Shown here: positions 1,681-4,813 of the stretch, piece after piece | Position numbering within the stretch: position 1 is the first letter of the stretch | How the letters are laid out: each line of letters begins with the position of its first letter | Assembly: GCA_020355945.1 (NCBI GenBank) | Contig: CP070627.1 | Span: 5,746,157 to 5,753,304 of the forward strand | Length of the DNA: 7,148 nucleotides | Direction of reading: 5' to 3' | From: Candidatus Aminicenantota bacterium | GTDB lineage: Bacteria; Acidobacteriota; Aminicenantia; UBA2199 | Notes under the pieces: generated by a model | Told to the model about the DNA's origin: nothing | The model's input: only the letters and a program-made list of their open reading frames with translations | The model's database searches: none | Made by a program: the position numbers and the translations under genes

Positions 1681-2694
1681 ATGAATAACGGTTGGATTAA
1701 AATAAAAATCGTGACTTTTTTTATTCTTATATTATGGGTCTCGTTCCCTTTAGGTACTCAAATGACAAAGAGTACCAGGACACCAGCCATTGGAAATGAA
1801 GGCTTGAAATATAACTTTACTTACAGCTTTCAAATGGATATGAAAGGAAGGATTTTACTGGTTGTTCCTTACCGGTTCTACCACGAAGTCTCGGCATCGG
1901 TGAATTTTATCGCCAGGAAAAATAGGGAAGAAGGATATGAATTTTGTTTCGATGGTATTGAAGGGACAGGGTATGTCATGACCACCGGTGGATTGACCGG
2001 GACCTCATTGTACTTTTTTACGGCAGATTACGACCTGGAAAAGGCAATCAAATTCAGGGAAAATAAAATTGCAAATTTTAAAAAATCCGAACCCTATTAC
2101 GCAAAGAATATCAGGAAAATCCGCAGGCGCCCCATGAAAATCTTATCCGTCAACGATGATGCCATCCGATTCACCAGGGATTCAACAGGAATTCATTATT
2201 CTTCGCAAGTGAATATCCGACTCACCGATCCGCACTCCTTGACTTACTCAAATATATATAAAATCCTGGGCAAAATGTTGAATATCTACAACCATTCGTT
2301 CTTACCAGGGGCAGCCGATAGGTTGAGGGTGAATCACCTGGAACAATTTATCCATCGGGTCTGGTACAGCAAGCCCCTTGATTTTTCAAAACCGCTGGAA
2401 CAAGCAGCCAAATTAACCTCCGAATACGCTGAAAAGAATATCCGTTTTAAACAAAAACAAAAATTCAGGATGCAATACCGCATCACTGCCGTAGATAACA
2501 ATTATATGGAAATATGCGGCGAAAGTTACCCCGATGCGATCATCCGGAAAAAAATGAAAATCAGGCATGTCCTTCGAAAAATCAAGCTGCGACCGGAAGA
2601 TGATGTCGTGGTAGAAGATATGATAAATTTGGATTTCAGGGATAAAAAAGCAAGAGGCGGAACCATCCGTTTGAAATTGCAACTGCTCCTATGA
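1681..2694 (+). CDS. Secreted or periplasmic protein of unknown function
   Basis: The 337-residue product is not one I recognise. Residues 1-10 are Lys-containing, and about 11-24 form a hydrophobic stretch (VTFFILILWVSFPL), which fits an N-terminal signal sequence or membrane anchor. A cleavage site is not obvious and I see no lipobox. The mature part alternates hydrophobic and polar residues, as in beta-rich proteins (about 45-165), and is rich in Lys and Arg. It closes with a beta-like repeat-free tail ending in LQLLL. It opens with GLKYNFTYSF, faintly like the start of DUF3108-type periplasmic proteins, but that is too weak for an assignment. It starts 45 nt after the kinase stop on the same strand with no promoter or terminator seen between them, so co-transcription is plausible. 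No good Shine-Dalgarno precedes the ATG, so the start is uncertain. A GTG at 1711 would cut into the signal segment and is less likely. Confidence 0.75.
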   Translation: MNNGWIKIKIVTFFILILWVSFPLGTQMTKSTRTPAIGNEGLKYNFTYSFQMDMKGRILLVVPYRFYHEVSASVNFIARKNREEGYEFCFDGIEGTGYVMTTGGLTGTSLYFFTADYDLEKAIKFRENKIANFKKSEPYYAKNIRKIRRRPMKILSVNDDAIRFTRDSTGIHYSSQVNIRLTDPHSLTYSNIYKILGKMLNIYNHSFLPGAADRLRVNHLEQFIHRVWYSKPLDFSKPLEQAAKLTSEYAEKNIRFKQKQKFRMQYRITAVDNNYMEICGESYPDAIIRKKMKIRHVLRKIKLRPEDDVVVEDMINLDFRDKKARGGTIRLKLQLLL

Positions 2695-2869: not shown

Positions 2870-3063
2870 AACTACTGGAGTAGTTAGCCTCCTACCTCAG
2901 TAGGAAAGGATTCTACCTTAGTAGGAAAGCATTCTACCACAGGTAGACCATATCCTACTTCAGGTAGATAGCGTCCTACCTCAGTAGGAAAGAGTTCTAC
3001 CACAGTAGGAAAGCATTCTACCTGAGTAGGAAAGTATCCTACCGGAGTAGAAGAGCATTCTAC
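2870..3063. repeat. Array of ten units at 21-bp period, nine with a CTAC/GTAG palindrome
   Basis: CTAC starts at 2872, 2892, 2913, 2934, 2955, 2976, 2997, 3018, 3039 and 3060: one step of 20 bp, then eight steps of exactly 21 bp. In the first nine units CTAC is followed by a 4-5 base loop and GTAG, giving a 4-6 bp hairpin. The tenth lost its right arm. Loops differ (TGGA, CTCA, CTTA, CACA, CTGA, CGGA and others), while the arms do not. Most spacers read GAAAGNATT or close to it. Units four and five carry GTAG one base later, yet the 21-bp length is kept. The region is noncoding. It lacks the long identical repeats and unique spacers of a CRISPR. It could be a protein-binding array, a structured RNA or a mobile intergenic repeat. 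Confidence 0.9.
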
Positions 3064-3153
3064 TTCAAAAGGTCACAAAAAAATAAAATAAATTGGGTTT
3101 GTATAAATAAGAAAAACCTGGAAAACTTGGAGACAGTCCCGAATGCCATACTA

Positions 3154-3214: not shown

Positions 3215-3730
3215 TTATGCCTCCACTGGCTTATATAACGGGACTAGCACTTCTATTTTTTCTAACCCGGGGCATTTTTGTTCTGCTGCCCAGAGATCAT
3301 ATTTTGTTTGCAAATTTAACCATAGTTCAGGGGTCGTATTAAATGCTTTCGACAACCGTAGTGCCATATCCGGGGTAATCGAACCTTTTTCATTGATAAT
3401 TTTCGAAATGGTTTTACGCGAAACGCCAAGGTCTCTGGCAATTTCTGAGATTGTTAAAGATAGTAGTTCAATATAGTGTCGTTTTAGAATCCCACCGGGA
3501 TGAGTGGGTTGTCTTTTTTTCATACCTTTACACTCCCTCCAATGATCTTTTAACTTACCTTTCAAGGGATGTAAATTTGAACCTGGATAATTCATATCCT
3601 GGATTATGACAGAAGCATCAAGCTGATCCAGTATATCTGCAATTTTTTGAGAATGTTTCGGCTGAATTCCGCTCTTATCTCCATAATAAAAAAAATTTTC
3701 CAGGCCTTTATGTTCAAAGCTTTTAATCAT
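3215..3730 (-). CDS. higA: In-frame fusion of truncated HigB toxin and intact HigA antitoxin
   Basis: The 171-residue frame joins two proteins that are normally separate. Residues 1-64 match the start of HigB (RelE-superfamily mRNA interferase), including MIKSFEHKGL, GIQPKH and LHPLKGKL. Normal HigB is about 92 residues, and the C-terminal strands with the conserved Arg and the final Asp-Tyr-His are missing. Residues 65-69 (RECKG) look like the former untranslated leader of higA read through. From Met70, 102 residues form a full HigA: QPTHPGGI, an Xre/Cro-type helix-turn-helix (ISEIARDLGVSRKTISKIIN), PDMALRLSKAF and ELWLNLQTKYDLW. HigA binds its own promoter and, in intact systems, neutralises HigB. 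The toxin half should be inactive, because residues needed for catalysis in HigB are lost. HigA can also be made alone from the ATG at 3521-3523. The product is probably a surviving autorepressor or orphan antitoxin. An assembly error is possible but unlikely, since the frame is clean. Confidence 0.85.
   Translation of the reverse strand: MIKSFEHKGLENFFYYGDKSGIQPKHSQKIADILDQLDASVIIQDMNYPGSNLHPLKGKLKDHWRECKGMKKRQPTHPGGILKRHYIELLSLTISEIARDLGVSRKTISKIINEKGSITPDMALRLSKAFNTTPELWLNLQTKYDLWAAEQKCPGLEKIEVLVPLYKPVEA
3521..3540 (-). promoter_or_regulatory. Internal ribosome-binding site and start of HigA
   Basis: On the minus strand GGAGGGAG (3533-3540) lies 9 nt before the ATG at 3521-3523, where the normal HigA N-terminus MKKRQPTHPG begins. 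This is a strong Shine-Dalgarno, so stand-alone 102-residue HigA is likely made whether or not the fused form is. In the fused frame the same bases are read as Trp-Arg-Glu codons. Confidence 0.75.
3539..3730 (-). pseudogene. higB: higB toxin remnant (C-terminal third deleted)
   Basis: This is the HigB-derived part of the fused frame: 64 codons ending at the Trp of KDHW. His54 and Lys57 of the HPLK motif are retained, but everything after the expected fourth strand is absent, including the usual NWRI strand and the DYH terminus. The deletion junction reads CAT TGG, very like the CAT TGA expected at the end of an intact higB (His-stop). Loss between two short CATTG strings would explain an in-frame join. 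The ATG at 3728-3730 sits right at the predicted transcription start. Confidence 0.75.
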
Positions 3731-3852: not shown

Positions 3853-4539
3853 TTACTCTTCTTCCCTGTGGTATGTTTTAGAAATTAAATCTTCATAAAA
3901 ACGATAAAATTCATCAATATCAAAATCTGCAATAATATCCGGAAAGGCATATGGGTTCTGCTTTATCGTTTTTAAATTATTCTCTAGCTGATACGAAACC
4001 ATCGGCGGATCATCAAACATTCCTTCCTTTTGCCGGGCATCTTTATAAATTGAATCAATATCCAGCAATTTCATTTTGTTGATAAAATAAAAATCGATAA
4101 AATCTTTCGGCTCATTACGACTGATGAGCGTACAAAATTTGTTCGAGGCTATGTTTCTTAAGGTATCGATAAAAATGAAACTATCGTTATTTATTTGATA
4201 CTTTATTTTTTTGTCATTGAATGACAGATTGTCATGGACAAAGTCTACTTTTATCCCATTTAAATATACCGATAAAATATAAGGTTCCTTAACCAGCGTG
4301 GTAAATCCTTTAGGCCATTCATTTTTTACCCAGGCTTCAATTCGATCAAATTGGGGTTGAATAACGCTGAATAAATCGATATCTTTCGAGTACCGATGAT
4401 GTAAGTAAAAGACGGATAGGGCTGTTCCTCCTGTCAGGAAAAAATTCTTTTCGATAGTTTCATGTTTAAAGAGCTGGAATAAAATCCTTCTTTGTTCTTC
4501 TTTTGCATAACAGCCTGTATTTTCGATCAGTCTATCCAA
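3853..4539 (-). CDS. AbiEii/AbiGii-like nucleotidyltransferase (putative toxin)
   Basis: The 228-residue protein has the signature of the AbiEii/DUF1814 nucleotidyltransferase fold. This includes the GG motif LTGGTAL (35-41), HHRYSKDIDLF (47-57) with paired metal-binding Asp53 and Asp55, and a third acidic site KVDF (98-101, Asp100). The later conserved block is KFCTLISRNEPKDFIDFYFI (134-153). All expected catalytic residues are present. In studied members (AbiEii, MenT) the enzyme transfers nucleotides, for MenT onto tRNA ends, and blocks growth unless countered by a partner; the substrate here is unknown. The start is the TTG at 4537-4539. An in-frame stop lies shortly upstream with no ATG or GTG between, and GGGAG sits 6 nt before the TTG. 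The gene overlaps the partner's end by 8 nt, so translation is probably coupled. The gene is clearly more A+T-rich than the kinase at the left, which fits horizontal transfer. Confidence 0.85.
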   Translation of the reverse strand: MDRLIENTGCYAKEEQRRILFQLFKHETIEKNFFLTGGTALSVFYLHHRYSKDIDLFSVIQPQFDRIEAWVKNEWPKGFTTLVKEPYILSVYLNGIKVDFVHDNLSFNDKKIKYQINNDSFIFIDTLRNIASNKFCTLISRNEPKDFIDFYFINKMKLLDIDSIYKDARQKEGMFDDPPMVSYQLENNLKTIKQNPYAFPDIIADFDIDEFYRFYEDLISKTYHREEE

Positions 4540-4780
4540 AGACTTCTCCCATTCGTTTCCACTTTCTTAAGGCATAATCCGGTAACTGCAATTTATCGAG
4601 ACTCTCTATAATCTCTTTTATATTGAAAAGTTTTAAAGTATCTACCACCCTTCCATACTTTAAAAATCGGGTCATTGCCCAATAATAAGGAACTTTACCT
4701 TTTTGTTCCTTAAGAAATTGCAGCAAATAGTCTTCATCGCTGAATTTTGGCAGGTCCCAGAATACAATATCCAGTTTCAT
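4532..4780 (-). CDS. Small partner protein of the AbiEii-like gene (putative antitoxin)
   Basis: This is an 82-residue protein starting MKLDIVFWDL. The ATG at 4778-4780 is preferred over the TTG at 4787-4789: AAGGA (4791-4795) is 10 nt before the ATG but only 1 nt before the TTG. It lacks the helix-turn-helix and length of classical AbiEi antitoxins. The FWD start, the block RFLKYGRVVDTLKLF and the IKEIIESLDKL helix resemble the small DUF6922-type proteins often encoded just upstream of AbiEii-like enzymes; this is from memory and not tested. It is the first gene of a two-gene operon, ends inside the start of the nucleotidyltransferase gene, and has its own promoter. An antitoxin role is inferred from position and size. 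No transmembrane or signal segment is visible. Confidence 0.65.
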   Translation of the reverse strand: MKLDIVFWDLPKFSDEDYLLQFLKEQKGKVPYYWAMTRFLKYGRVVDTLKLFNIKEIIESLDKLQLPDYALRKWKRMGEVFG

Positions 4781-4813
4781 CGTTAACAATTCCTTTTTTT
4801 ATGTTCCTTTTAT

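Follow-up and report, generated by a model that had tools for sequence, protein, structure and literature searches.

Intergenic tandem arrays with a step of two helical turns: a candidate class of spacing-defined repeats in scattered bacterial genomes

Analysis of a 7,148-nucleotide stretch of the genome of Candidatus Aminicenantota bacterium (hereinafter, the window), together with genomes from several phyla, points to a possible class of intergenic tandem arrays that share not a sequence but a step of two turns of B-DNA (21 ± 1 bp, at 10.5 bp per turn) and that probably serve as platforms for proteins bound to the same face of the helix. We prefer this reading tentatively, with a confidence somewhat short of even. 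The array in the window shows the features by which we propose to delineate the class, namely a period of 20–22 bp, differing units and few step changes.

The window array is located between the 3′ ends of two convergent genes and consists of nine palindromic CTAC-N4/5-GTAG units followed by a half unit (Table 1). Eight of the nine steps between successive CTAC starts are exactly 21 bp and the first is 20 bp; seven units have an N4 loop, and the two with an N5 loop also keep the 21-bp step. The initial annotation had reported ten CTAC starts, nine units closed by GTAG, eight successive 21-bp intervals and two units in which a shifted right arm leaves the spacing intact, all of which we reproduced, with the 20-bp first interval as the remaining one. 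The longest run of CTAC at a fixed period comprises nine units in the window, whereas 2000 first-order Markov sequences as long as the window, scanned for any fixed period of 12–59, attain at most three (in 6 of the 2000). Tandem Repeats Finder (TRF) detected the 21-bp period (score 159) and also, with a higher score (233), a period of 84 bp, that is, four units; therefore, part of the array was probably born by a four-unit duplication. The array is probably noncoding: each of the six frames is interrupted by a stop within the called stretch (2892–3080), and the codon-position test for this array alone gives P = 0.13. One frame on the minus strand is, however, open across 2887–3072.

Table 1. 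The window array, its units and the two flanking genes (positions in the window)
Feature	Positions	Strand
Whole array: nine CTAC-N4/5-GTAG units and a half unit; 21-bp steps after a first one of 20 bp	2871..3067	
Unit 1, CTACTGGAGTAG, 20 bp to the next unit	2872..2883	
Unit 2, CTACCTCAGTAG	2892..2903	
Unit 3, CTACCTTAGTAG	2913..2924	
Unit 4, CTACCACAGGTAG, N5 loop, 21-bp step kept	2934..2946	
Unit 5, CTACTTCAGGTAG, N5 loop, 21-bp step kept	2955..2967	
Unit 6, CTACCTCAGTAG	2976..2987	
Unit 7, CTACCACAGTAG	2997..3008	
Unit 8, CTACCTGAGTAG	3018..3029	
Unit 9, CTACCGGAGTAG	3039..3050	
Half unit, CTAC without a right arm	3060..3063	
Left convergent gene, 337 aa, without a Pfam family	1681..2694	+
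Right convergent gene, encoding an in-frame fusion of a HigB-like N-terminal part and a HigA-type HTH part	3215..3730	-

In the right-hand gene, the HigB-like part covers positions 1–64 of the 91-position profile; the HigB and HigA Pfam families are found on one protein elsewhere as well (P0043, P0129 and P0138). Adjoining this gene, at 3853–4789(-), is a gene for an AbiEii-type nucleotidyltransferase with an overlapping 85-aa partner, possibly a type IV toxin-antitoxin pair. Between the left-hand gene and the array, positions 2700–2824 are occupied by a CGCGAAG-rich repeat and, after it, some four copies of the 9-mer AATCTGTGT, which is also present in doubled form in the loci L154, L162, L169 and L192. 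A CRISPR array was rejected because the linkers of the window array are only 8–9 bp long and partly alike and no cas family was detected among the seven window proteins scanned against Pfam. An origin from a phage or a plasmid is disfavored as well, given that all 10 viral matches to the CTAC pattern are inside open reading frames (ORFs) and that blastn yielded no plasmid or phage match.

Homologs of the 337-aa protein were sought in 142 genomes of the class of genome G044, which was found through protein matches within the phylum of genome G002. Matches were detected in 31 of these genomes, the closest one, with 61% identity, in G483 (10.4 Mb), where a second window protein has a 75% identical homolog on the same contig. 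At this orthologous locus (L093), no array resembling that of the window was found; instead, a different array, with steps of 20–21 bp and GGACC and T-rich units, lies on the other side of the gene. Among the 31 loci with protein hits (112 kb), only L093 holds a noncoding period-21 array. A search of ten genomes (G478–G487) with the DNA of the window array returned E-values of 0.15 at best and no window-like array, and the two-unit CTAC pattern occurs in these genomes as a single pair, in G483. The initial annotation had held that lack of conservation in relatives would speak against its proposal, and the outcome is divided: the array itself is missing from the orthologous locus, and a spacing of about 21 bp is common to the arrays of the relatives. 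Because of this absence, and because unit number changes at another locus (see below), the window array does not stand as a single conserved element.

The broader picture comes from 761 kb of sampled DNA, 416 kb from G483 and 345 kb from G485; the latter genome, in which neither window protein was matched, is known only to share the class. A periodicity scan (periods 12–34) identified 33 sites in G483, 15 of them with period 21 and 5 with period 20 or 22, and 29 sites in G485, 16 with period 21 and 3 with period 20 or 22. Unit calling at periods 20–22 yielded 21 arrays in G483 and 17 in G485, that is, 38 beyond the window, and all but one of these lie outside called ORFs (38 of 39 with the window included). 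Contigs C1, C130, C208 and C638 of G483 were chosen non-randomly and hold 4 of its 21 arrays (two in C130 and one each in C1 and C638). Seven contigs of G485, chosen from very weak DNA matches (E 0.4–9.1), hold 13 of its 17 arrays, and the six remaining contigs (73 kb) hold the other 4 at a similar density. If the samples are typical, each genome would carry some 400–525 arrays. The units mostly differ between arrays, with some recurring families (L189 and L192; L138, L154 and L190). Thus, the helical phasing that the initial annotation had noticed in one array holds and can be generalized, the 38 further arrays showing a step of about 21 bp with few changes.

The same periodicity is apparent in the intergenic DNA at large. 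The self-match at lag 21 has a z-score of 17.3 in G483 and 23.5 in G485; the neighboring lags 20 and 22 give 5.4 and 5.7 in G483 and 4.1 and 3.6 in G485. After the called arrays are masked, the lag-21 values amount to 8.0 and 7.4, respectively. The control values at lag 21 are -1.4 for G323, 4.8 for G166, which holds one 7-mer array, and 8.1 for the small-genome control G093, in which lags 7 (z = 11.6) and 6 (z = 9.3) exceed lag 21. In a scan of periods 9–110, in which neighboring matches of one array were counted separately, 24 of the 32 noncoding repeat matches in G483, 24 of the 29 in G485 and 31 of the 35 in the Bacteroidota sample fall at 20–22 bp or near 42, 63 or 84 bp; in the controls G166 and G323 (296 kb), there are 8 noncoding matches, none of them at 20–22 or 42 and one at 63. 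With permissive settings, TRF also reports many arrays of 7–9 and 14 bp in the genomes that carry the period-21 arrays.

Gene context offers no common theme. Of the 39 arrays (window included), 13 lie between divergent genes, 11 between co-directional and 6 between convergent ones, 8 are at contig ends outside called ORFs and one is within an ORF; the background of gaps of at least 200 bp consists of 53 divergent, 69 co-directional and 30 convergent ones. The transcription barrier between convergent genes suggested in the initial annotation thus finds no support, the arrays being distributed over the three kinds of gap about as the background is. A partner gene in the manner of a cassette was rejected because the Pfam families of 20 flanking proteins are mixed in function. 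Three different arrays with 21- or 22-bp steps fill one stretch without called genes in L170 (12726–13919), and four different ones, likewise with 21- or 22-bp steps, do so in L189 (178–1134). In L156 (6760–7133; contig C130 of G483, represented also as L114 1–360), nine 21-bp units are directly followed by nine inverted ones. A match to the group II intron D1-D4-6 is located at the start of a G485 contig (L170 1–128(-)).

The constancy of the step was assessed over 66 arrays, in which we counted one step of 19 bp, 49 of 20, 528 of 21, 26 of 22 and 2 of 23, the mean of the array means being 20.98. In the 56 period-21 arrays, 508 of the 514 steps are exactly 21 bp, so that only six change, and the 570 units contain 2378 mismatches to their consensus, that is, about 4 of the 21 letters per unit. 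Over all 66 arrays, constancy is weaker: 28 of the 606 steps (4.6%) leave the period of their own array, owing to one-base jitter in the ten arrays with period 20 or 22. With the indel/substitution ratio set to 0.01, arrays simulated and passed through the same pipeline, with units slightly more diverged than the real ones, show 3.3–4.4% deviating steps; a ratio of 0.05 gives about 15%. Under this model, the ratio would be below 0.005 in the period-21 arrays and near 0.01 overall. In neutral bacterial DNA, the ratio is 5–10%; with this value, the simulations suggest that the arrays have undergone fewer step changes than drift would produce.

Such constancy does not appear to reflect translation. 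No codon-position signal was detected over 30 arrays (combined P = 0.99) or over 25 others (combined P = 0.86, with one of the 25 at 0.04); several arrays, moreover, are interrupted by stops in every frame or have 20-bp, 22-bp or mixed steps. A protein-coding heptad repeat was accordingly rejected, on the strength of the missing codon-position signal and of the stops in the window array. Heptamer satellites were rejected, too, because lags 7 and 14 are depleted inside the period-21 arrays, as are lags 10 and 11. Palindromes are common but not universal among the arrays: a dyad excess at P < 0.05 was found in 9 of the 39 Aminicenantes-side arrays and, among 27 others, some of which had been chosen by means of a palindromic pattern, in 14. 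With P = 0.055 in this test, which allows loops, the window array falls just short of the threshold; in the variant without loops, 7 of the 39 arrays show the excess and the window array gives P = 0.43. The palindrome, prominent in the initial annotation, therefore does not qualify as the defining feature. Intrinsic curvature was rejected for the window array, for which a wedge model gives a smaller bend than for its own shuffles (9.4 vs 21.9 degrees per 100 bp). It is possible for many other arrays, the set having a median bend of 41.8 vs 26.8 for local DNA, with the higher value in the array in 49 of 65 cases.

Further arrays with periods of 20–22 bp and other units are present on contigs of G001, G003, G004 and G007, which we take to be Bacteroidota, and of G005, presumably a spirochaete. 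These genomes were found through the CTAC pattern, so that their CTAC arrays are selected; other arrays occur also on contigs not chosen for CTAC (G003 C1, G005 C1 and G007 C3). Outside the class of the window, a plain ORF test flags 23 of the 35 matches with periods of 20–22 bp as possibly coding (12 of 13 in G007, 5 of 6 in G005, 2 of 7 in G003 and none of 3 in G004), and the gene caller drops ORFs more than 25% of which is array, so that 'noncoding' in these genomes means noncoding by the codon test only. In G002, the CTAC array is the only one. Noncoding period-21 arrays were not found in 80 kb from eight unselected Bacteroidota, in 14 loci of the Nocardia group, in the samples of G478, G481 and G482, or in G323. 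With few or no arrays in many samples, the array-rich genomes are scattered and the distribution is patchy. One noncoding array in G003 (L230, about 11414–11700) has a period of 31 bp, close to three helical turns.

The CTAC motif itself is found elsewhere, too. The three-unit pattern with the 21-bp step matched 36 stretches of genome contigs, compared with about 0.001 expected in uniform DNA (2.57e11 bases over 4^24, for a pattern identical to its reverse complement). These stretches comprise 14 loci of Nocardia and Rhodococcus, 10 coding-looking ones and 12 that look intergenic or are uncallable; a frame tends to remain open through repeats of 21 bp, and the ORF test accordingly assigns most of these 12 to an ORF. 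Of 396 genomes in the phylum of G002, 17 contain two-unit pairs, spaced by 20–24 bp in 16 of them; among 395 genomes in the phylum of G001, 16 contain such pairs, and the spacing is 27–28 bp in 9, 22 bp in 3, 21 bp in 2 and 18 bp in 2. The backwards control matched more genomes than the pattern (about 36 of 396 and 44 of 395), and therefore two-unit pairs alone mean nothing. In the Nocardia and Rhodococcus loci (e.g., L001, L013, L017 and L026), three CTAC-N4-GTAG sites follow each other at 21-bp steps (four in L014), and this triplet looks like a conserved multiple operator. The CTAC-N4-GTAG dyad is a common operator shape; nine in a row at gene ends is unusual.

The main rival of the platform reading sees neutral or selfish minisatellites in the arrays and attributes their unit length to copying in blocks of about 21 bp, be it by helix-limited slippage or recombination or by an unknown templating enzyme; the spacing would then be a trace of birth and not of function. 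We regard this as a serious possibility, only somewhat less probable than the platform reading. It explains turnover and patchiness well. At one Flavobacteriaceae locus, the arrays of two genomes differ by 63 bp, that is, three whole units, and are rearranged inside, with the aligned segments (array parts included) 97.8 and 98.6% identical. A second Flavobacteriaceae locus, where an 82% match beside the array came with no array, bears neither way on turnover. The 84-bp period in the window, the 42-bp AB alternation in 15 of 44 arrays, the lack of attachment to particular loci, the presence of several different arrays in a single gap (L170 and L189) and the one-base step changes that do occur in period-20 and period-22 arrays are all in line with such copying. 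The few step changes are explained less well: with units diverged at about 4 of 21 letters, ordinary mutation after birth would be expected, at the neutral ratio given above, to have altered more than 6 of 514 steps. We know of no enzyme that copies DNA in 21-bp blocks.

The other explanations considered appear much less probable. That the window array gathers operators of a BlaI/MecI-type (Penicillinase_R) or TetR-type dimeric repressor is improbable, although its units have the CTAC-N4-GTAG dyad, Penicillinase_R genes adjoin the two-unit CTACN4GTAG pairs in all five loci tested, and a TetR-type regulator (TetR_C_31) adjoins the 21-bp triplets in all four Nocardia loci tested. Such operators are present in one to few copies at promoters, whereas the window has nine sites at the 3′ ends of two genes; moreover, no regulator of either type was found among the seven scanned window proteins, and the arrays of G483 and G485 have other units. 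Still less probable is an RNA element in which the transcript forms a chain of hairpins acting as an attenuator, a decoy or a source of processed small RNAs. Folding of the transcript, recommended in the initial annotation, gave a mixed answer: the array RNA does fold better than shuffles (z = -7.8 and -6.9), but tandem palindromes fold well anyway and the predicted folds mostly pair arms of different units, so that the proposed chain of nine separate hairpins is not borne out. Covariation within arrays is weak (3 of 30 arrays at P < 0.05, combined P = 0.02), no Rfam match exceeds the gathering score on the arrays of the window or of eight other sources (weak matches far below these scores appear at a loose threshold), many arrays lack clear dyads, and hairpins need no exact spacing. 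We consider it most unlikely that a transposase or an integrase has spread the arrays as mobile repeats resembling REP/BIME or CRISPR. The CTAC/GTAG arms recall GTAG, the REP tetranucleotide, some unit families recur, and Y1_Tnp genes are present in the array-bearing G483 (4), G003 (2), G004 (2) and G001 (5). However, Y1_Tnp was not matched in the array-bearing G485, G005 and G007, six such genes were found in G481, where 39 kb showed no array, and the units mostly differ from array to array.

Comparison with known repeats suggests that the arrays are a variant of intergenic tandem repeats set apart by the two-turn step. Bacterial intergenic minisatellites, or VNTRs, are tandem noncoding repeats that vary in unit number; the arrays described here are likewise tandem and apparently noncoding, and unit number differs between two near-identical genomes at one locus (not that of the window), but arrays with different units, also in different phyla, have a period close to 21 bp, and their steps change rarely. 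The iterons of plasmid replication are also direct repeats about two helical turns apart, with one sequence per replicon beside rep; in contrast, the present arrays are many, have mixed neighbors, and in the window are not accompanied by a rep family among the seven proteins scanned. The nearest published description that we found concerns the TAACTGA heptamers, direct repeats in the intergenic DNA of Beggiatoaceae, some Cyanobacteria and Bacteroidetes (PMC4679880). These are, like the present arrays, abundant, short, intergenic and patchy across phyla, but represent a single 7-bp sequence rather than differing units with a 21-bp step (PMC4679880). The direct-repeat binding of BldC at Streptomyces promoters involves one protein and one motif, unlike the arrays analyzed here (PMC5859096). 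In the open-licence literature, we found no description of a class of intergenic arrays with a 21-bp period, which does not by itself demonstrate absence from print.

Under the platform reading, arrays would gain and lose whole units through tandem duplication, and the step would be maintained by selection, given that all units have to lie on one side of the helix. A putative DNA-binding or nucleoid protein would, most likely, occupy successive units and form a cooperative row on one face of the DNA. Action at the level of DNA is favored over RNA because RNA hairpins would need no exact step. A bolder version, which we deem unlikely, is that some bacteria of several phyla carry hundreds of arrays per genome defined by helical phase alone, whatever their sequence, and that these constitute a sequence-independent layer of chromosome organization or the product of an unknown enzyme that writes two-turn blocks.

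If spacing rather than sequence is under selection, the class would be invisible to motif searches and found at once by a periodicity scan. Selection on spacing would also account for the single unit length of different repeats in distant phyla and would turn the arrays into a natural setting in which to test for protein rows on bacterial DNA that depend on helical phase. If, alternatively, a copying process makes the blocks, the arrays would point to an undescribed mutational mechanism.
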